This document shows, one piece after another, positions 52,501 through 64,000 of a stretch of 64,000 nucleotides of DNA (within the stretch, counting starts at the first letter, position 1; the number at the start of each line of letters is the position of its first letter). Source of the stretch: an uncultured Opitutales bacterium (GTDB taxonomy: Bacteria; Verrucomicrobiota; Verrucomicrobiia; Opitutales; Intestinicryptomonadaceae); the NCBI GenBank assembly GCA_944389195.1, contig CALXLM010000034.1:1-64000 (forward strand), read 5' to 3'. Both the position numbers and the translations under genes were made by a program. The notes under the pieces are model-generated. The model was given only the letters and a program-made list of their open reading frames with translations. It made no database searches and was not told the DNA's origin.

Positions 52501-53715
52501 ATAGTGGGCGAGGAAGGCAACGTTCTGGAAGACTACACCCTTGCGGCGGGCGCCCTCATAACCGCCGAGGAAGGGCAGCACGTTAAGAAGGGCACACTAT
52601 TGGCCCGCTGGGATCCGCACAATATTCCGATTATGGCGAGCGAATCAGGGGTGGTGCAGTTTAAGGATTTGATAGACGGCCTTACATACCGCTCGGATTT
52701 CGACCCGTCGACCGGGCGTACGACGATAACAATTTCGGACCACAAGGAGGATTTGAATCCGACCATCAACATCGTCGACAAGAAGACCAAGAAAATAAAG
52801 GCGTTCCAGGCTATACCGACGGGGGCGCAGGTCATTGTCTCCGAGGGCGACGAGATCGTTCCCGGAATGATTATGGCAAAGACTCCGCGTTCGGCGGCCA
52901 AGACGCAGGATATCACCGGAGGCCTTCCGCGCGTTGCGGAGCTTTTTGAAGCCCGCCGCCCGAAGGACGCCGCGGAAATCGCGCGTTCGCACGGCATAGT
53001 CAAGATAGGAGGAACTCGCCGCAAAAAGACGATTTTGCGCATAGTTCCCAAAGGCTGGCAGGAAGGGGATTCCGGTGCGATAGAGGAGCATCTCATACCC
53101 GCAAACAAACGCATAATCGTCCAGCCAGACGACGAGGTGAAGAGGGGGCAGCCGCTAACCGAAGGCGGAGTGGACCCGAGCGAGGTTTTGGAGGTTATGG
53201 GTTCGAGCGAGGTTCAGGAATACATCATCAGGGAAATCCAGAAGGTGTACCGTTCGCAGGGCGTGACGATCAACGACAAACACATCGAAGTGATAGCCTC
53301 GAGAATGCTCAGGAAGGTTCGCGTGTCGGATCCCGGAGACTCCGATTATTTCTGGGGGCAGCAGGTTGACCGCTACGAGTTCATGGAGACCAACAAAAAC
53401 ATCGTCGATGCCGGCGGAAAACCGGCGGCAGCCGAGCCGATACTGCTCGGCATCACCAAGGCGAGCCTTGAAACGGAAAGCTTCATAAGCGCCGCCTCCT
53501 TCCAGGAAACCACAAGGGTTCTGACCGAAGCCGCAACGCTCGGCAAACGCGACGACCTTTCGGGATTCAAGGAGAACGTAATCATGGGAAATCTGATTCC
53601 CGCGGGCACGGGGCTTGCGGCTTACCGCAAGCTCAGGGTAAGCGCGGCGGGCCGTTCGCCGCTGGTTTCCGAGAATGTCGGAGAATCGTCCGATACGGAG
53701 GCCGGCGCCCAGTAG
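49534..53715 (+). CDS. rpoC: RNA polymerase beta' subunit lacking the second zinc site
   Basis: 1393-residue catalytic subunit. The first zinc ribbon is intact (C74, C76, C89, C92 in [13 protein letters not shown] and VCDRCGVE), and the active-site aspartates D463, D465 and D467 are in NADFDGD. The bridge-helix/trigger-loop region with [13 protein letters not shown] is normal. The second zinc site, made in E. coli by C814, C888, C895 and C898, has no cysteine left. The aligned residues are D812 (ITEEDDGN for ITEEDCGT), H887 (SPLTH), P894 and A897 (IPAKAYG in place of VCxxCYG). All surrounding sequence is well conserved, so this is loss of the metal site and not misalignment. Start ATG 49534 has AAGGAA upstream. 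Confidence 0.98.
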
Positions 53716-53973
53716 AGGGTGTGCCGGCGTCCTTTGACGTTTTAATTTCTTTGTGCGCGCTTTTCGGCGTCCGCAAAAAGTCGCTTTCGCCGGCGCAAAA
53801 ATTGTTTTTTGCAAAGTGAGGGCAGAGCAAAATAAAAACAGTGTCGGGCGTCGAAGACGTTGCACGGGCGCGCCGGCACAAAGCAGAAAAATAAAAAAAC
53901 ACAAATAAAAAACTTGCCAAAGAGAAAGCGATATATACTTTCTGACGTCTTTCTCTTTAAAAAGACACAAAAT

Positions 53974-54357
53974 ATGCCTACAATTAATCAGTTAGTTCGC
54001 AAGCCGCGCAGCCTTGTAAAATCCAAGACGAAGGCTCCGGCGTTGAAGTCGAATCCGTTTCGCCGCGGAGTTTGCGTGCAGGTCATGACCCGCACGCCTA
54101 AAAAGCCTAATTCGGCTATTCGTAAAGTTGCAAAAGTACGTCTCACTTCAGGGTACGAAGTGATAGCCTATATTCCCGACGAGGGACACTCGCTGCAGGA
54201 ACACAGCGTAGTTCTCGTGCGCGGCGGCCGCGTGAAGGACTTGCCCGGCGTCCGCTACCATATCGTGCGCGGAACGCTCGACTGCATGGGCGTTGAAAAG
54301 CGCCGCCGCAGCCGTTCGAAATACGGAGTGAAGCGTCCCAAGGCAAAGAAGGCATAG
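53974..54357 (+). CDS. rpsL: Ribosomal protein S12
   Basis: Decoding-centre protein, 127 residues. The PKKPNSA loop and [12 protein letters not shown] retain the lysines equivalent to K42 and K87, so the sequence predicts streptomycin sensitivity at S12. ATG 53974 gives [12 protein letters not shown]; the upstream extension of the frame is in the 258-nt spacer after rpoC. TATACT near 53933 might be a -10 of a str-operon promoter, without a matching -35. Confidence 0.97.
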
Positions 54358-54384
54358 TTAACAGGTTAAAGAAAAGGCAAAAAC

Positions 54385-54858
54385 ATGTCACGCAGACACA
54401 GAGCTGAAAAAAGAGAACGCATTCCGGATTCGCGCTATAAAAGCCCGCTTGTGAGCCACCTTATAAATATGGTGATGAAAAATGGCAAAAAAACCGTGGC
54501 CGAACGCATTGTTTACGGGGCGATAGAAAAGGTGAGCGAAAAGCTCGAAAAGGGCGACCCCATAGATTTGCTTTTGGGCGCGCTTGAGAACGTGCGCCCC
54601 AAACTCGAGGTCAAGAGCCGCCGCGTGGGAGGTGCGACTTACCAAGTGCCGGTAGAAGTTTCGTTTGACCGCCAGCAGACGCTTGCTTTCCGCTGGCTGA
54701 TAGAGGCCGCCGGGAACCGCAAGGGGCTGCCAATGTCGGACGCGCTTGCCGCGGAGCTGGTCGATGCGTACAACGGCACTGGAACGGTTGTCAAGAAGCG
54801 CGAGGACGTTCATAAAATGGCGCAGTCCAACAGGGCTTTTGCGCATCTTCGCTGGTGA
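54385..54858 (+). CDS. rpsG: Ribosomal protein S7
   Basis: Small-subunit head assembly protein, 157 residues. It begins MSRRHRAEKRERIPDSRYKSP and includes the RRVGGATYQVPVEV hairpin and the C-terminal VHKMAQSNRAFAHLRW. It lies between rpsL and fusA in the usual str order. Confidence 0.97.
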   Translation: MSRRHRAEKRERIPDSRYKSPLVSHLINMVMKNGKKTVAERIVYGAIEKVSEKLEKGDPIDLLLGALENVRPKLEVKSRRVGGATYQVPVEVSFDRQQTLAFRWLIEAAGNRKGLPMSDALAAELVDAYNGTGTVVKKREDVHKMAQSNRAFAHLRW

Positions 54859-54882
54859 TAGATTTTTTACAGGACCGCAGAC

Positions 54883-57036
54883 ATGGCACTATCAGAAAAA
54901 AACTCCCCCAACAGGCCTAAGCCCTTGGAATATACGAGGAACATAGGCATTTCGGCGCACATAGACGCAGGCAAGACCACTTGTTCCGAACGTATTTTAT
55001 TTTATAGCGGCGTGGTTCACAAAATCGGAGAGGTCCACGAAGGCACGGCAGTCACAGACTGGATGGAGCAAGAGCGCGAGAGAGGTATAACGATAACGTC
55101 TTCGGCAATATCTTGCAATTGGACCACGAAAAAGGGGCCGTATGCCGGGATACAGCAGCAAATAAATCTCATAGACACCCCCGGACACGTCGATTTTACG
55201 GCTGAGGTGGAGCGTTCGCTAAGGGTGCTTGACGGCGCTGTTGCGGTATTTTGCGCCGTGGCCGGCGTGCAGCCGCAGTCCGAAACGGTTTGGCGGCAGA
55301 TGAACAAGTACAATGTTCCCCGCATCGCGTTCATAAACAAGATGGACAGGACGGGCGCCGATTTTTACGGCGCGGTGGAGGACATTAAAACGAAGCTTAA
55401 CGGCAACCCGCATCCGCTTTTCCTTCCCATCGGGGCCGAAGACAAGTTCAAGGGGCTTGTGGACCTCGTGTCGATGAAGGCTTATGTGTACGACGAAAAC
55501 GACCCGCAGGGCGTTAAGTACGACGTGGTTGACATTCCGGCAGAATATAAGGAGAAGGCGGAGCAGTACCGTTCGGAACTCATAGAGGCGGTGGCAGATT
55601 TTGACGACTCCATAATGGAGCGCTTCCTTGAGGGGGAAACGAATTTTTCGGAGGACGAGCTGCGCATAGGTATCCGCAAGGCGACGCTTTCGCGCGAATT
55701 TGTGGGCGTAATTCCCGGTTCGGCGTTCAAGAACAAAGGCGTACAGATGCTTTTGGACTCCGTGGTTGACTATCTTCCGAGTCCGCTCGACGTTCCGCCG
55801 ATTAAGGCCTATGGGGAAAACGACGAGGACGTTCCTTCGCTGGAAATCGTTTCCGACGACTTTGCGCCCCCGACGGCGCTCGCGTTCAAGCTGTGGAGCG
55901 ATCCGTTTGTGGGCAAGCTCGTGTTTATCCGCGTTTACAGCGGGTGCATCAAAAAGGGCATGCAGGTTTACAATCCGCGCAGCCGCAAGACGGAGCGCAT
56001 TTCCCGTTTGCTGGTCATCAAGGCCGACAAGCGCGAAGACATTGAAGAGGCTTACAGCGGTTCGATATGCGCAATCATCGGGGCTAAAGACATAGTCACG
56101 GGCGACACGCTTTGCGAAAGGGACCACGAAGTCCGCCTCGAGCCTCCGACATTCCCCGAGCCGGTTATCGCCATGAGCATAGAGCCGAAGTCGAAGGCCG
56201 ACCAGGAAAAGCTTTCGATAGCCTTGCAGCGCCTCGCCGAAGAGGACCCGACTTTTGTAGTCACTACAAATCAGGAAACTGGGCAGACTCTTATCGCCGG
56301 CATGGGAGAGCTTCACCTCGACATCATACGCGACCGCCTGTTCCGCGAATTTAAGGTGGAGGCCGATTCGGGCAAGCCGCAGATAGCCTACCGCGAAACT
56401 ATCACAAAGTCTGCTCCGGGCGTCGGAAAATTCGTCCGCCAGTCGGGCGGGCGAGGCCAGTACGGCCATGCCGAAATCGTCATGGAGCCGCTCGAAAAGG
56501 GCAAGCACTACGAGTTTGTCAACGAAATCGTCGGCGGCGTCATTCCCAAAGAGTATATCAAGCCTACGGAGGACGGCATAAAGGAGGCGATGATAAACGG
56601 CGTTGTTGCCGGGTATCCGGTTGTGGACGTCAAAGTGCGCCTCGTATTCGGCTCGTTCCACGAAGTTGACTCGTCCGAAATGGCGTTCAAGATGGCCGGC
56701 ATTTTCGCCTTCAAGGACGCCATGAAAAAAGCGGATCCGATTCTTCTCGAACCCATAATGAAGGTCGAAGTGACCACTCCCGACGAGTACCAGGGCGACG
56801 TGATGGGCGACATAAACCGCCGCCGCGGCCAGATACAGGGCATGGAATCGAAGGGCAACGTCACTGTAATAAAGGCGTTTGTGCCGCTTGAAACCATGTT
56901 CGGGTATGCGACCGACATTCGTTCGCTTTCGAGCGGAAGGGCGTCGTACTCGATGGAGCCGAGCCATTTCGAGCAGGTTCCGGCGGCCGTCCTAAAGCAG
57001 GTTCAGGAAGGCGCGGCAAAAAAGGCGCAAAGATAA
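54883..57036 (+). CDS. fusA: Elongation factor G
   Basis: Translocation GTPase of 717 residues in five domains. G1 is AHIDAGKTT, switch I contains the canonical QERERGITI, and G3 is DTPGHVDFT. Domain IV carries [11 protein letters not shown]. The intact RGITI here contrasts with the altered switch I of the same organism's EF-Tu, showing that the EF-Tu change is specific. It is the last str-operon gene before rpsJ, which begins 17 nt later. Confidence 0.97.
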
Positions 57037-57053
57037 TTTAAAAGGAAAAAATT

Positions 57054-57362
57054 ATGGCCACTCAGAGAATCAGAATAAAACTCAAGGGTTACGATTTCCG
57101 CACGATAGACCAGAGCGCGAGCGACATCGTCGAAACGGCAAAGCGCACTGGCGCGACGGTGTCGGGTCCGGTGCCGCTGCCGACCAAGATTGAAAAGTAT
57201 TCGGTAAACCGTTCCGTGCACGTCGACAAAAAAAGCATGGAGCAGTTTGAGCTTCGCACGCACAAGCGTCTTATCGACATCGTTAATCCGACGGCGAACA
57301 CCGTTGACGAGCTGAAGAAATTGAATCTTCCTTCGGGCGTAGACATAACGATAAACGTTTAG
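57054..57362 (+). CDS. rpsJ: Ribosomal protein S10
   Basis: Small-subunit head protein, also NusE, the partner of NusG in coupling transcription and translation. The 102-residue protein has [18 protein letters not shown] and [18 protein letters not shown]. It is preceded by fusA by 17 nt and so belongs to the str transcript here. The next gene, rplC, is 403 nt away rather than adjacent. Confidence 0.97.
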
Positions 57363-57765
57363 CGGATTTTTTCCGGGGAGGGCGCGGTTGCGGATTTCCC
57401 CGGGGCGCGGAGTTCCGTATTTTGGGGAAGTCCGCTTTTTCAGTCAAATTTCATTTGCGCAAATTTTTCGAAGCATCTGCCGCCGGGCGGTGCCGGAGGG
57501 AAAAGTTCTTAAGGGCTTTTCCATTCGGCTGACGGGCGGAGAGAACCGGAAAGTTTGCGCGAAATTTGTTAAAAAATTAAGGCGTAAAAAAATTTTTTAT
57601 TGACAGGGTTTTTTAGATAGGCACTATTTGCCGTCTTTACAGATTTTTTCATACAAACAATAACAACTAAAGCAGGTTTCGAAAGGGAGTCTTGCCTGAA
57701 AGCCGGAGACCTTTAAAAATCGCGTTTCGCGGCGCTTTTAGCGTGATTCCGCCTGCCTCTTAGCA
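57363..57765. other. Long rpsJ-rplC spacer with candidate promoter and leader
   Basis: No gene supported; a plus-strand open frame at 57388-57603 lacks motifs. After an AT-rich patch, TTGACA lies at 57600-57605. The following 130 nt before rplC contain small dyads such as CGCGTTTCGCG. The region probably holds a separate promoter and an untranslated leader for the rplC gene group. Regulation by a ribosomal protein (for example L4) is possible but not shown. Confidence 0.5.
57600..57628 (+). promoter_or_regulatory. Candidate promoter for the rplC gene group
   Basis: A perfect -35 TTGACA at 57600-57605 and, after 17 nt, ACTATT at 57623-57628, which matches only three of six -10 positions. The location in an unusually long spacer makes a promoter plausible; the weak -10 keeps the confidence low. 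Confidence 0.4.
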
Positions 57766-58404
57766 ATGAGCGAAATATTAATCGGAAAAAAACTGGGCAT
57801 GACCCAGATTTTCGACGGGGACAACAGCCTTGTTGCTGTGACGGTCGTAGAGGCCGGTCCGTGTCCCGTCACGCAGGTTAAAACGGCTCAGAGCGACGGT
57901 TACGACGCCGTGCAGATCGGCTTCGGGGCGCAGAAAGAACAGCGCATGACAAAACCGGAACTCGGGCACTTAAAAAAAGCGGGGATAGCGCCCGTGTCGG
58001 AGCTTGTGGAGTTCCGCGTTGACAATCCGTCCGACTACAAGGCGGGCGACGTTCTTACGGTTGCAAAATTCGCCGAGGGACAAATGGTCGACGTTATCGG
58101 CACGACAAAAGGCCGCGGTTTTCAGGGCGTTATGAAGCGCCACAATTTCGACGGGCAACCCGAAACGCACGGCCATATGATGCACCGCCGTCCAGGTTCC
58201 GTAGGCTGCCGCCAGACTCCAGGGCACGTCTATAAGGGCAGAAAGATGCCCGGGCACATGGGGCAGGTGCGCCGTACGACGCAGAACCATCCCATAATGA
58301 AGGTTCTGGAGGACAAAAACATCCTTTTAATAAAGGGAAGCCTTCCCGGAGCGAAGGGCGATCTGCTTATTGTTCGTCCCGCCAAGAAGGCCAAGAAAGC
58401 ATAA
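57766..58404 (+). CDS. rplC: Ribosomal protein L3
   Basis: Early assembly protein near the peptidyl-transferase centre, 212 residues. It shows LIGKKLGMTQIF at the N terminus, TKGRGFQGVMKRHNF, HRRPGSVGCRQTPGHVYKGRKMPGHMG and VKGSLPGAKGDLLIV. First gene of the group after the promoter-bearing spacer. Confidence 0.97.
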   Translation: MSEILIGKKLGMTQIFDGDNSLVAVTVVEAGPCPVTQVKTAQSDGYDAVQIGFGAQKEQRMTKPELGHLKKAGIAPVSELVEFRVDNPSDYKAGDVLTVAKFAEGQMVDVIGTTKGRGFQGVMKRHNFDGQPETHGHMMHRRPGSVGCRQTPGHVYKGRKMPGHMGQVRRTTQNHPIMKVLEDKNILLIKGSLPGAKGDLLIVRPAKKAKKA

Positions 58405-58416
58405 GGAGCCGCTAAG

Positions 58417-59052
58417 ATGAAACTTAAAGTTTATACAAAGGACGGTTCGAGCTTCACGGAGCAGGATTTTGAAAATATCCCCCAGTTCGAGGGTGACAAG
58501 GGACTGTTCGCGCTCAAGGAAACAATAGTTGCATACCAGGCAAACGCCAGACAGGGCAACGCTTCGACTCTCGACTACGGTCACGTCAACGGCACGTGCC
58601 GCAAGCCTTTCAAGCAGAAGGGCGGCGGGCGTTCGCGCCACGGCACGATGAAAAGCCCGATCCACCGCGGAGGAGCGGTCGTTTTCGGCCCCAAGCCGCG
58701 CGACTGGTCAAAGAAGATAAACCGCAAGGCGAGGCTTTTGGCGTTTTCGCGAGCCCTCTTTGACAAGTGCGTGGATAACGACGTTTGCGTCATAGAGGAA
58801 TTCTCCGTCCCCGAAAGGAAGACGAAGGAGGTCGTCAAGGTTTTGTCGAACATAAAGCCCGAAGGAAGGGTTCTGTTGGTTGACGACGTTTTCGGCGACG
58901 ATTTCATACTTGCCGGCCGCAATATAGAGCGCGCCGATTTCTGCGAAAGCGCAACATTGAACGCTTTGGACATCGTAAAATCGGGAACTATAATAGTGTC
59001 GCGCAAAGGGCTGGATACGGTTCTTGCCCGCATCAACAAGGACGAAAGGTAA
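58417..59052 (+). CDS. rplD: Ribosomal protein L4
   Basis: Exit-tunnel protein and in E. coli the autoregulator of the S10 operon. The 211-residue protein has the loop GTCRKPFKQKGGGRSRHGTMKSPIHRGGAVVFGPKPRDW. It lies 12 nt after rplC. Confidence 0.96.
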   Translation: MKLKVYTKDGSSFTEQDFENIPQFEGDKGLFALKETIVAYQANARQGNASTLDYGHVNGTCRKPFKQKGGGRSRHGTMKSPIHRGGAVVFGPKPRDWSKKINRKARLLAFSRALFDKCVDNDVCVIEEFSVPERKTKEVVKVLSNIKPEGRVLLVDDVFGDDFILAGRNIERADFCESATLNALDIVKSGTIIVSRKGLDTVLARINKDER

Positions 59053-59057
59053 TCCAG

Positions 59058-59345
59058 ATGGTACAGGCAGACAAAATTATAAAAGGTTTCCGCGTGACGG
59101 AAAAGGCGGCCAATTTGCAGGTTTCAAACCAGTACACTTTTGAAGTCGCCGAAAGCGCGAACGCGGTTTCGGTTGGGCAGGCCGTGGAGCAGCTCTTCAA
59201 GGTGAAGGTCGTGAGGGTGAACATTCTCAACGCCAAGGGCAAGGTGAAGGTTTCGCGCATGAGGCGCAGCAATCCCGGAGTCAAGGGCAAAATGAAAAAG
59301 GCCGTCGTGACGCTCAAGAGCGGAGACTCAATTCAAATCGCGTAA
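59058..59345 (+). CDS. rplW: Ribosomal protein L23
   Basis: Tunnel-exit docking site for trigger factor and SRP, 95 residues. Starts MVQADKIIKGFRVTEKAANLQ and has the YTFEVAESANAVSVGQAVEQLF segment of the family. Separated from rplD by 5 nt. Confidence 0.95.
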   Translation: MVQADKIIKGFRVTEKAANLQVSNQYTFEVAESANAVSVGQAVEQLFKVKVVRVNILNAKGKVKVSRMRRSNPGVKGKMKKAVVTLKSGDSIQIA

Positions 59346-59363
59346 GGCAGGAGGATTTTCAAT

Positions 59364-60212
59364 ATGGCTATTATAAAAAGAAGACCTTTGACACCCGCGC
59401 AGCGCTTTTTGGAACTCGGGCGCAACGAGGTTGACAACAAGCGTCCTGAACGCGCCCTCACCGAAAGCAAACACCGCGCCAAAGGGCGCAACTGCTACGG
59501 GCGCATAACTTCCCGGCGCAGGGGCGGCGGCCACAAGAGGCTTTACCGCATAGTCGATTTCAAGCGCGACATAGTTGACGTTCCGGCCGTTGTCATGGCG
59601 ATAGAGTACGATCCGTACCGCACGGCGTATTTGGCGCTTGTGCAGTATCAGGACGAGAAAAAGACCAAGAGATACATCATTGCGCCCGACGGCTTAAAGA
59701 AGGGCGATACGGTTGTCACGCTTTCAAAGCGTCCCGACGAATTTCCCGTCGGCACATGCATGCCGCTGAAGTTCATTCCGCCTGCAATGAGGATTTTCTG
59801 CATCGAGATGCAGCCCGGCAAGGGTGCGCAGATCGCCCGCGGCGCCGGAGCCGGCGCTCAGCTTGTGGCCGTTGAAGGCGACATGGCGACCGTAAAAATG
59901 CCGAGCGGCGAAATACGCATGATAAACGCCGAATGCAAGGCCGTAATAGGGGTTGTGGGAAATCTCGAGCATCAGAACCAGAGTCTCGGCAAGGCGGGGC
60001 GCGTCCGTTGGATGGGCAAGCGCCCGAGGGTCCGCGGCGTGGTGATGAATCCGGTTGACCACCCGATGGGCGGCGGCGAAGGCCGTACTTCAGGCGGCGG
60101 ACATCCGGTGTCGCCGTGGGGGCAGCTGGCCAAGGGCTATCCGACGCGCACCAAGAGCAAGCCGTCGAACTCGATGATTGTTCTCCGCCGCAACGGCAAG
60201 AAAACAAAGTAA
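59364..60212 (+). CDS. rplB: Ribosomal protein L2
   Basis: Peptidyl-transferase-associated protein, 282 residues. The C-terminal VMNPVDHPMGGGEGRTSGG retains the conserved histidine equivalent to H229 of E. coli, and GRNCYGRITSRRRGGGHKR is near the N terminus. An AGGAGG-type Shine-Dalgarno precedes the start. Confidence 0.97.
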   Translation: MAIIKRRPLTPAQRFLELGRNEVDNKRPERALTESKHRAKGRNCYGRITSRRRGGGHKRLYRIVDFKRDIVDVPAVVMAIEYDPYRTAYLALVQYQDEKKTKRYIIAPDGLKKGDTVVTLSKRPDEFPVGTCMPLKFIPPAMRIFCIEMQPGKGAQIARGAGAGAQLVAVEGDMATVKMPSGEIRMINAECKAVIGVVGNLEHQNQSLGKAGRVRWMGKRPRVRGVVMNPVDHPMGGGEGRTSGGGHPVSPWGQLAKGYPTRTKSKPSNSMIVLRRNGKKTK

Positions 60213-60234
60213 GAAATCATAGGAGAAATCAAAA

Positions 60235-60513
60235 ATGGCACGTTCAATTAAAAAAGGTCCGTTTGTGGATCCGAGCCTTCAGGACAAAATCGACGAAGCG
60301 CAGAAGACAAATTCTCACAAGCCGATTCAGACCTGGTCGAGACGTTCGATGATTACTCCCGATTTTATCGGACTGAATTTTAACGTTCACAACGGCAAAA
60401 AGTTTGTGCCGGTCTATGTCACGGAGAACATGGTAGGGCACAAGCTTGGCGAATTTTCGCCCACTCGCACGTTTAAGGGACACAATCCGCACACCAAGAA
60501 GGCAGCTATGTAA
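60235..60513 (+). CDS. rpsS: Ribosomal protein S19
   Basis: Small-subunit head protein, 92 residues. Reads [19 protein letters not shown], then [17 protein letters not shown] and the end [12 protein letters not shown]. Its stop codon is only 2 nt from the start of the exported protein gene that interrupts the usual rpsS-rplV junction. Confidence 0.97.
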
Positions 60514-60515
60514 TT

Positions 60516-60848
60516 ATGGCGGGTTTTGGCAAAGTCGTGTTTTTTTCCGCTTTGACAGCAGCGGGATTGGCGTGCTTTGCCGAATCTCCCGAATGGGTGC
60601 TGAAGACAAACTACACCAACAGGGTGAACAGGGTGTCGGAGGCGCGCGACGACTTGGGGATTGTCAGGATAGACACCGGCTCGCAGAGCAACCTCCGCAG
60701 GGGGGCTATCTGCAAGGTGTACAGGGACAAAAAATACATCGGCGATGTCGTGGTGGTCGAATCGGACAAAACGCGGGCCGTCGCAATGGTAACCTCGGAT
60801 ATAAGCGTCGAAAAGGGAGACGCCGTTTACATAACACCGGCAAACTAA
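60516..60848 (+). CDS. Exported 110-residue protein embedded in the ribosomal-protein operon
   Basis: A small secreted or periplasmic protein of unknown function sitting between rpsS and rplV, where bacteria normally have no gene. Residues 1-22 form a signal peptide (MAGFGKVVFFSALTAAGLACFA). The mature 88 residues are beta-rich, with the pattern LRRGAICKVYRDKKYIGDVVVVESDKTRAVAMV and VEKGDAVYITP, which resembles a small SH3-like or beta-barrel fold. The single cysteine of the mature chain is in AICKVY. Spacing of 2 nt from rpsS and 15 nt to rplV implies co-transcription and likely coupled translation. An AAGAAGG at 60496-60502 inside rpsS is the best Shine-Dalgarno. Codon use looks like its neighbours, so it seems resident and not newly acquired. 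Confidence 0.82.
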   Translation: MAGFGKVVFFSALTAAGLACFAESPEWVLKTNYTNRVNRVSEARDDLGIVRIDTGSQSNLRRGAICKVYRDKKYIGDVVVVESDKTRAVAMVTSDISVEKGDAVYITPAN

Positions 60849-60863
60849 TATAGGAATATAAAA

Positions 60864-61205
60864 ATGGAAGTTAAAGCTTTAACAAAGTTTGCGCGCATGT
60901 CAGACAAAAAGGTGCGCGAAATATCCCGGGAAATTCAGGGACTCAACGCCGCCGAGGCGCTGGAAATTTTGAAACTTGTTCCGCGCAAGAGCGCAAGGCT
61001 CGTGGCAAAGACGCTTGCAAGCGCCATTGCCAATGCGGAAAACAACAACGGTCTTTCGGCTGCAAATCTCACGATTAAGAGCGCGGTTGTGAATCAGGGC
61101 ATCGCTTTCAAGCGTTTCCGCCCGGTGGCGCGGGGCAGCGCGCACCCGATTCGCAAGAGGACTTCTCATATTTCGATCGTCCTTTCAGACGAGAACACTA
61201 AATAG
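60864..61205 (+). CDS. rplV: Ribosomal protein L22
   Basis: Tunnel-lining protein, 113 residues. Visible are [41 protein letters not shown] and the tunnel hairpin region [22 protein letters not shown]. It follows the exported protein gene and has AGGAA as Shine-Dalgarno. Confidence 0.97.
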
Positions 61206-61216
61206 AGGCAGATAAA

Positions 61217-61849
61217 ATGGGTCAAAAAGTAAATCCTAAGGGTTTCCGTCTCGCCGTCCGCCGCGACTGGGAGTCGCGTTGGTTTGCGAACAAGGGCGAT
61301 TACGCAGCGGCTGTCAACGAGGACTACCGCATCCGCGAATTTCTCCGCGAAAAGCTCAAAGGGGCGTCTGTTCCCCGCATATTCATAGAGCGCGCAGGGC
61401 AGCGCATACGCGTAAAAATCTACACTGCGCGTCCCGGAGTGGTCATAGGCCAGAAGGGCGCGGCTTTGGAGACGCTTAAAAGCGATTTGTCGAAATACCT
61501 CGGAAAAGATGTAATTGTGGACATTCAGGAGGTCAAGAAGCCTGATTTGGTCGCGTACCTTGTGGCCGAGAGCGTGGCGCTGCAGTTGGAGCGCCGCATA
61601 TCGTTCCGCCGCGCGATAAAGAAGGCGATAACGACTTCCATGGGCATGGGCGCAGACGGCATAAAGATACAGTGCTCCGGCCGTCTTGGTGGCGCCGAAA
61701 TAGCGCGCACGGAATGGCAGAGAAAGGGCCGCATACCGCTGCACACTTTGCGCGAGAACATCGACTACGGTTTCGCGGAGGCCCATACCGTGTACGGCAA
61801 AATCGGCGTCAAGTGCTGGTTGTGCCTTAAGGGCGAAGACAACATGTAA
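61217..61849 (+). CDS. rpsC: Ribosomal protein S3
   Basis: mRNA-entry protein with KH domain, 210 residues. [22 protein letters not shown] opens the chain. The KH GxxG loop is in [13 protein letters not shown], and the C-terminal [31 protein letters not shown] is typical. Confidence 0.97.
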
Positions 61850-61869
61850 TTTTAGGGAGATACGGTAAA

Positions 61870-62298
61870 ATGGCAAACATTCTTCCAGCAAAGACGAAGT
61901 ACCGCAAAGTGCAAAAGGGCCGCAACCGCGGCATGGCAAAAGGCGGCGACAGCATAGATTTCGGCGACTACGCAATACAGGCGCTCGAGCGCGGCAAATG
62001 CTCGGCGGCCCAGCTTGAGGCGGCGCGCGTTGCCATAAACAGGCATTTCAAGCGCCGCGGCAAGGTTTGGATGAGGGTTTTCCCCCAAAAGAGCGTGACA
62101 AAGAAGCCCGCGGAAACCCGCATGGGAAAAGGCAAGGGCGGAGTCGAATTCTGGTGTGCGATAATCAAGCCCGGAAGCATATTGTTCGAAGTTTCGGGCG
62201 TGCCTGCAAGCATGGCTCGCGAGGCCATGCGCCTGGCCGACGGTAAGCTTCCGTTCAGGTGCAGGTTTGTTGTTCGCGAAGGCGTGGAAATTCTGTAA
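61870..62298 (+). CDS. rplP: Ribosomal protein L16
   Basis: Large-subunit protein near the A site, 142 residues. Shows PAKTKYRKVQKGRNRGMAKGG, VFPQKSVTKKPAETRMGKGKGGVEFW and the C-terminal LPFRCRFV. The conserved RMGKGKG arginine, hydroxylated in E. coli, is present. Confidence 0.97.
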   Translation: MANILPAKTKYRKVQKGRNRGMAKGGDSIDFGDYAIQALERGKCSAAQLEAARVAINRHFKRRGKVWMRVFPQKSVTKKPAETRMGKGKGGVEFWCAIIKPGSILFEVSGVPASMAREAMRLADGKLPFRCRFVVREGVEIL

Positions 62299-62320
62299 TC
62301 GGTAGGAGGATTCTCAGTAT

Positions 62321-62506
62321 ATGAAGACAAAGGAAATAAGGGAACTTTCGGCTGAAGAGCTTTCAAAGAAACTCCGCGACATGCGCGAAGAACTGTTGAA
62401 TCTCAACGTTCGCAAGGGAACGGGGCAGGTTGAAAATCCGGCTCGCATCAGGGAATTGCGCCGCGACATAGCTCGCTGCGAAACAATTAAGGGTCAGAAG
62501 AAGTAA
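62321..62506 (+). CDS. rpmC: Ribosomal protein L29
   Basis: Short helical large-subunit protein of 61 residues near the tunnel exit: KTKEIRELSAEELSKKLRDMREELLNLNVRKGTGQVENPARIRELRRDIAR. Strong GTAGGAGG upstream. Confidence 0.96.
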   Translation: MKTKEIRELSAEELSKKLRDMREELLNLNVRKGTGQVENPARIRELRRDIARCETIKGQKK

Positions 62507-62517
62507 AGGACTATAAC

Positions 62518-62799
62518 ATGTCGGAAAAAGAAAGAAAGTCTCGCAGGAATCTCGTGGGCGTGGTGACATCCCGTTCGGGGGACAAGAGCATAAAGCTCAC
62601 CTATTTTTACAAAGTGCCGCATTCGCTGTACGGTAAGGAAATCCGCCGCAAGACGGTCATACACGTGCACGACGAAAAGAACGAATGCGCCCTTGGCGAC
62701 AAAGTTGAAGTGATGGAGACGCGTCCGGTCAGCAAGCTGAAGAGGTTTCGCGTTGTCCGCATAATAGAGAAGGCCCCCGTGGTGGCCTCGGCTGAATAA
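62518..62799 (+). CDS. rpsQ: Ribosomal protein S17
   Basis: Small-subunit OB-fold protein, 93 residues. [21 protein letters not shown], then [32 protein letters not shown] are the family marks. It lies between rpmC and rplN in the usual spc order. Confidence 0.96.
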
Positions 62800-62813
62800 A
62801 AGGAGGCAGGGCA

Positions 62814-63179
62814 ATGATACAGATGCAGACAAGGCTTGTGGTCGCCGACAACACCGGCGCCAAGGAGGTCGCAATGATTCGCCGTTTGGGCCAGCACAGC
62901 CGTACGGCGAAGGTCGGCGACATAATAGTGGTTGCCGTCAAGACTTCGACGCCCGACGCGGCGGTGAAGAAAGGCACGGTTGCGAAGGCGGTCGTCGTCA
63001 GGACGAAGGCGCCGATACGCCGCGCCGACGGCTCGTATCTCCGCTTCGACACGAACGCGTGCGTAATTCTCGACGGAAGCGGAAATCCGAAAGGCACGCG
63101 CATTTTCGGGCCCGTTGCGCGCGAGCTTAGGGCGAAGAACTACATGAAAATCATATCCCTCGCACCGGAGGTTTTGTAA
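62814..63179 (+). CDS. rplN: Ribosomal protein L14
   Basis: Subunit-bridge protein, 121 residues. [26 protein letters not shown] and [29 protein letters not shown] are family hallmarks. AAAGGAGG Shine-Dalgarno upstream. Confidence 0.97.
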
Positions 63180-63180
63180 T

Positions 63181-63441
63181 ATGGCTAAGAGGTTTGTAAA
63201 AAAAGGCGACGAAGTTGTTGTCATTTCCGGCTCGTCCAAGGGAAAGCGCGGAAAGATTCTGCTTGTGGACCCCAAAAAGGAGCGGGTAATTGTTGAGGGA
63301 GTAAATTTGCGCAAGCACCACGAGCGCAAGAGCGAAAAGAATCCGGAGGGGGCGATAGTCGAGCGCGAGGCTTCCATACATATTTCCAACGTAATGCCGG
63401 CTGGGCGTTTTGATGCCAAAAGGGGGCAAAAAAAAGCGTAA
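63181..63441 (+). CDS. rplX: Ribosomal protein L24
   Basis: Assembly initiator with a KOW motif, 86 residues: [38 protein letters not shown]. It starts 1 nt after the rplN stop, which indicates coupled translation. The chain is at the short end for the family. Confidence 0.96.
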
Positions 63442-63464
63442 TCAGCGGATAAACAAAAAAGAAA

Positions 63465-64000
63465 ATGAGCACACCAGTACTAAAGAGAATATATCAGGAG
63501 AAGGTCGTTCCCGAGCTTAAGAAGACGCTTGGGGTGGACAATCCTCACGAGGTGCCCACACTGGAGAAGATAGTCATCAATTCTGCCGTCAGAAGCGAGT
63601 CTCCCAAGGAGTGGGTGCCCGAAGTGGTCAAGGAGATAGCCAAGATAGCGGGCCAGCAGCCCGTGGTTGTCAAGGCCGGGAAAAGCATAGCGAACTTCAA
63701 GTTGCGCGCCGGCCAGCCGAACGGCGTGAAGGTGACTTTGCGCGGGGCGGCAATGTGGGACTTCCTTTATAAATTTATAGCGGTTGTGTTGCCGTCAATC
63801 CGCGACTTTCGCGGCGTTGGGAACCGCTTCGACGGGGCCGGCAATTACAGCTACGGCGTGGCAGACCACACGATATTCCCAGAAATAACGGTTGATCCGG
63901 GGCGCAAGAACATAGGCATGGACATCACTATCGTGACGACAGCCAAGGACGACAAGGCGGGCAGGGAACTTTTGAAGCTTCTCGGCATGCCGTTTCGCAA
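63465..64000 (+). CDS. rplE: Ribosomal protein L5 (3' end beyond window)
   Basis: 5S rRNA-binding protein. From ATG 63465 the frame runs 178 codons plus two bases to the window end without a stop. It shows VPTLEKIVINSAV, VVKAGKSIANFKLRAGQPNGVKVTLRG and the C-terminal LLGMPFR. Since L5 usually ends GMPFRK or a few residues later, the gene is nearly complete. Confidence 0.95.
   Translation, partial: MSTPVLKRIYQEKVVPELKKTLGVDNPHEVPTLEKIVINSAVRSESPKEWVPEVVKEIAKIAGQQPVVVKAGKSIANFKLRAGQPNGVKVTLRGAAMWDFLYKFIAVVLPSIRDFRGVGNRFDGAGNYSYGVADHTIFPEITVDPGRKNIGMDITIVTTAKDDKAGRELLKLLGMPFR

Follow-up and report, generated by a model that had tools for sequence, protein, structure and literature searches.

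The junction of the ribosomal protein genes rpsS and rplV is usually regarded as fixed. In an uncultured Opitutales bacterium (assembly GCA_944389195.1, contig CALXLM010000034.1), it holds a further gene, here called gene X, which encodes a small protein with a predicted export signal and a predicted six-stranded barrel. Among described proteins, the Vibrio flagellar H-ring protein FlgT (PDB 3W1E) is exported and carries a periplasmic six-stranded barrel as its C-terminal domain (PF16538), an arrangement that is predicted for X. However, FlgT has additional N and M domains and belongs to a flagellar context, whereas X consists of a signal and a barrel and is encoded among ribosomal genes. The FlgT C-domain has been structurally connected to the N-terminal (crown) barrel domain of F1-ATPase, and its topology is common to the barrels of periplasmic adaptors (PMC4446572). 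The corresponding barrels of F1/V1 ATPases and FliI resemble the predicted X barrel in size and in how the strands are arranged (Z 8-9, about 66-72 residues). In contrast to these enzymes, X lacks a nucleotide-binding domain, ends at the barrel and is predicted to be exported; identity in structural alignments is about 10-20%, and X had no ATPase Pfam match. Periplasmic adaptor proteins of the AcrA/MacA type resemble X by description, having a periplasmic beta-barrel of the FlgT-C topology (PMC4446572), but they combine it with a hairpin, a lipoyl domain and a transporter partner, none of which was seen for X. The layout of MreC (anchor or signal, coiled coil, beta-barrel) is common to the longer members of the X family; X itself has a single barrel and no significant match to MreC, which has its own gene in these genomes. 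The PVC superphylum signature protein CT421.2 is small (about 53 to over 80 aa) and PVC restricted (PMC3444138); X family proteins, with an export signal and 110-400 aa, are set apart from it by published length only.

Gene X is an open reading frame of 110 codons with an ATG start and a TAA stop, located within the 64,000-nt stretch of DNA analyzed here (the window; Table 1). Its translated N-terminus, MAGFGKVVFFSALTAAGLACFA followed by ESPEW, resembles a signal peptide with a hydrophobic core. The cut site was read by eye, and the residues around it (F21-A22-E23) are identical in a relative whose protein is 69% identical and encoded in the same place (L002 of the genome collection). Likewise, the N-terminus is hydrophobic in each of the 27 homologues from the order, and its first ten positions always include one or more basic residues. 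Scans of X against Pfam, NCBIfam and PHROGs returned no usable family, no plasmid relative of X was found, and an Rfam scan of window positions 53600-64000 gave no match. An earlier note on this DNA had described an exported, beta-rich protein of no recognized family encoded between rpsS and rplV with spacers of 2 and 15 nt. The coordinates bear out the position and spacing, and the signal-like N-terminus, the all-beta model and the lack of a named family support the rest, export and fold being predictions. Elsewhere in the S10 operon, the gap between rpsJ and rplC (window 57363-57765) is long for this operon at 403 nt and holds no convincing gene.

Table 1. Features of the gene X locus in window coordinates.
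Feature	Position	Strand	Basis or remark
Gene X, 110-aa exported barrel protein (predicted)	60516..60848	+	Sequence and translation, 27 order-level homologous ORFs, dN/dS
Predicted signal peptide, residues 1-22	60516..60581	+	Likely cut after Ala22 (between CFA and ES)
Predicted six-stranded barrel, residues 35-110	60618..60845	+	AlphaFold2 models, structure comparison range, 68-sequence phylum profile
rpsS, upstream neighbor of X	60235..60513	+	3' end holds the only Shine-Dalgarno-like match for X
rpsS-X spacer, 2 nt	60514..60515	+	1-34 nt for homologues elsewhere in the order; compatible with coupled translation
X-rplV spacer, 15 nt	60849..60863	+	Contains AGGA, a Shine-Dalgarno-like match for rplV
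rplV, neighbor to which X stays attached at split operons	60864..61205	+	Sequence, split loci

No promoter-like site on the forward strand was found between rpsS and rplV, and the stretch from the rpsS stop codon to rplV holds no terminator-like site on that strand. Shine-Dalgarno-like matches in the window were AGGAG for rpsS and AGGA for rplV, while X has only AAGG, inside the coding end of rpsS. This arrangement fits a putative co-transcription of X with the S10 operon and a coupled translation, probably at a lower level. The codon log-ratio index of X was -0.055, compared with a background mean of -0.040 (standard deviation 0.039) for other genes of the window and a mean of +0.029 for its ribosomal genes. 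Codon usage is thus ordinary and not ribosome-like, an observation that is weakly informative due to the small contrast between background and ribosomal gene sets. The earlier note proposed that X must be made at ribosomal-protein levels or be coupled to them; the former is unsupported, given this codon usage and the weak ribosome-binding site.

Gene X is under purifying selection, with dN/dS values of 0.14-0.32 between close pairs versus less than 0.08 for rpsS and rplV, and it evolves about ten times faster than these two neighbors. Protein distances of X track those of RplV (Mantel Spearman rho 0.44; 0 of 2000 permutations as high), which fits the expectation under vertical inheritance.

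A match to X was detected in 30 of 54 relatives. When rpsS and rplV were mapped in 123 genomes of the order, both genes lay on one contig in 110, and the gap between them was two-peaked, measuring 339-609 nt in 58 of the 110 and less than 225 nt in the remaining 52. Long gaps were read in 27 distinct genomes and at 11 further loci, the others being counted by length alone. Each of the 27 genomes has one open reading frame of 108-137 codons between the two genes, starting 1-34 nt after rpsS and ending 5-46 nt before rplV, and all 11 further loci carry the X family. Indeed, all long gaps read in the order encode a protein that has a signal peptide and, at its C-terminus, the barrel found in X. 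Identity to the X of the window falls as low as 19%, so that the more distant homologues are recognized by their position and by profile matching more than by pairwise comparison. Decay by frameshift or lack of conservation, which the earlier note had considered as evidence against its reading, was not observed: orthologues occupy the same place in the genus and the order, and none of the 27 copies read showed decay or a frameshift. Together with the selection acting on the protein, this puts gene X far outside what chance would produce.

By gap mapping, around half of the genomes in the order lack X. Within families f14, f21 and f22 some genomes have it and others do not, and it is missing from reduced genomes (0.8-1.1 Mb) as well as from several families with genomes of 2-5 Mb. 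Because X occupies this position outside the order too, repeated loss accounts for the pattern more simply than repeated insertion does, an argument made without a formal tree. Since X has been lost in many relatives, it is not generally essential and not a core requirement. One single-contig genome of the same genus, listed as 95% complete (G010), gave no match for rpsS, rplV, MreC or secretin; its sequence may be masked or mislabeled.

Outside the order, a profile built from order sequences only matched proteins of 240-300 residues elsewhere in the phylum, by their C-terminal part only. In the first pass, E-values for genes 5' of rplV ranged from 5.6e-13 to 0.004; families f36 and f64 and one f61 locus joined only after iteration, and their final E-values are partly circular. 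The specificity of the iterated profile was checked against 1133 six-frame translations, among which only forward-strand frames at rplV matched. The resulting phylum profile comprises 68 sequences. Reading of the DNA placed the long-form genes directly 5' of rplV, encoding a signal or anchor, a coiled coil and the barrel; compared with these, the X of the window is minimal, having no coiled coil.

Of the genomes outside the order, 115 yielded both rpsS and rplV; the gap was long in 35 and short in 32, and the two genes lay apart in 48. Different contigs carry the two genes in most of the 48 cases; where the assembly is a single chromosome, as in G058, G132, G165 and G168, a long distance separates them. 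In these four genomes and in G095 the break in the operon falls precisely between rpsS and rplV, and a split also occurs in families f36, f41, f42, f46, f47, f52, f54, f58, f60-f62 and f64. The X family, in its longer form, was present at all 14 long-gap loci read. At split loci, it was the gene before rplV in 16 of 20 read, 1-117 nt away where measured, and in part of the phylum the X gene heads a separate rplV operon. No copy was detectable at the other four split loci read (L107, L108, L111 and L124), and no X remnant was detected in the short gaps read (about 85-228 nt). Intermediate gaps of this size without an X remnant were found at L069-L075, L087, L092, L093, L095, L101 and L104.

The high stability of the rpsS-rplV junction assumed in the earlier note does not hold in the Verrucomicrobiota, as outside the order the junction is split in 48 and expanded in 35 of 115 genomes. 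A phylum-wide profile search, which that note had suggested as a way of asking whether X always sits in this place, did recover the family beside rplV across much of the Verrucomicrobiota; the position between rpsS and rplV, by contrast, is not fixed. These data point to an ancestral Verrucomicrobiota family encoded directly 5' of rplV, which the order has mostly retained as a short version whose coiled coil is reduced or missing. Taken jointly with the functional model set out below, this is a proposition that we consider evenly balanced.

The predicted mature protein is all-beta. AlphaFold2 models, both built on a two-sequence alignment, had a mean pLDDT of 64.6 for full-length X and 71.0 for the mature part, and showed a six-stranded barrel over residues 35-110 with a domain pLDDT of about 75-80. 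Compared with the N-terminal barrels of F1/V1 ATPases and FliI, the first model gave a Z of 8.4 (68 residues, 2.2 A) and the second a Z of up to 9.4 (72 residues, 2.5 A). Values of 8-9 exceed only slightly what models lacking a clear match typically reach at best. A helicase domain (Ighmbp2) tied in the second structure search (Z 9.6), and the best Foldseek E-value for the models was only 5e-3. Profile and consensus searches against solved structures likewise returned weak, scattered matches only. FlgT 3W1E was absent among the structure matches listed, which excludes nothing.

The only relevant Pfam model touching the barrel was FlgT_C (PF16538), always below its curated cut-off of 27 bits. 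X itself had no match, while a long form scored 15.2 bits (E 0.03) and the family consensus 13.2 bits. The best paralogue score was 24.7 bits, a copy in G041 (L022) reached an E-value of 3.3e-5, and none of 96 phylum genomes had a match over the cut-off. The modeled barrel thus looks like the FlgT-C type, but X does not qualify as a member, and the X barrel family is claimed by no curated family. In this genome, a paralogue (L033; G000:C40, near 71125-71355) combines an anchor, a coiled coil and an FlgT_C-like barrel and adjoins a gene that reads as glucose-6-phosphate isomerase; L022 (G041:C59) is arranged likewise. On account of these paralogues, X is one branch of a wider verrucomicrobial protein set.

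The explanation that we favor is that X would be transcribed with the S10 operon and translated largely by re-initiation after rpsS. The product would be exported by Sec and trimmed to a barrel protein of roughly 88 residues, and the mature protein may work in the periplasm as a small envelope assembly or scaffold subunit. The supply of X would then rise and fall with ribosome synthesis. We consider this model as a whole to have an even chance of being correct. Its scaffold or assembly component is proposed from architecture, on the precedent of barrels of this type that form rings. A broader version, in which an ancestral exported barrel locked to rplV couples growth to the envelope throughout the phylum by performing an envelope job outside known families, is doubtful; if it were true, the supply of X to the periplasm would follow ribosome synthesis across the phylum.

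Nearly as likely as the favored model, and itself tentative, is an explanation in which X has an ordinary envelope function and has inherited its place since breaking a ribosomal operon is costly. The ordinary codon usage, the weak ribosome-binding site, the fast evolution and the many losses of X all agree with such a passenger. However, where the operon has split and X had the chance to separate, it is still directly 5' of rplV in 16 of the 20 loci read.

This retention, together with the tight spacing of X and the predicted export of a protein encoded directly 5' of rplV, would also suit a secretion monitor. SecM, which precedes secA, is such a monitor, and translation and export of X could similarly tune rplV and downstream genes. 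We consider this very improbable, as the conserved part of X is the folded barrel and not the tail. Among the 27 homologues, the tail after the last strand varies in length and sequence and has no arrest-like motif. Furthermore, rplV often has its own Shine-Dalgarno match, and X was lost in many relatives that keep rpsS and rplV adjacent.

A further reading makes X an MreC-like morphogenesis factor, built of signal or anchor, coiled coil and barrel, that would work together with the elongasome. The long forms have a similar layout, and there is local, though very weak, resemblance to an MreC chain (E 0.75) and an MreC model (E 0.45). We give this role little credence because MreC is present independently of X: 115 of 123 order genomes encode a separate MreC regardless of X (here at G000:C23), and the presence of X does not track MreC or secretin across the order, both being near universal. 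In addition, no PF04085 match was listed for X or its homologues, nor for any longer protein that was scanned. Finally, location among ribosomal genes and the anchored rather than cleaved appearance of some long forms could indicate that X is not exported, its N-terminus being an inward-facing membrane anchor or its barrel cytoplasmic at the ribosome, but this is highly unlikely given signal-like N-termini in all 27 homologues and an evolutionary rate, about tenfold that of ribosomal proteins, that is unusual for a ribosome partner.

In the open-access literature, no description of the X gene or of the Verrucomicrobia S10 operon split was found; as subscription papers were outside this search, the novelty of the family and of the split is provisional. 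Overall, X represents an old, uncharacterized family of predicted secreted proteins locked into the ribosome-making operons of the Verrucomicrobiota. The family sits beside rplV across much of the phylum, probably including Akkermansia-type gut bacteria, and the S10 operon is split exactly at the X site in many lineages. With X, the question of how Verrucomicrobiota link ribosome production to construction of the envelope can be put to one defined gene that is amenable to testing.
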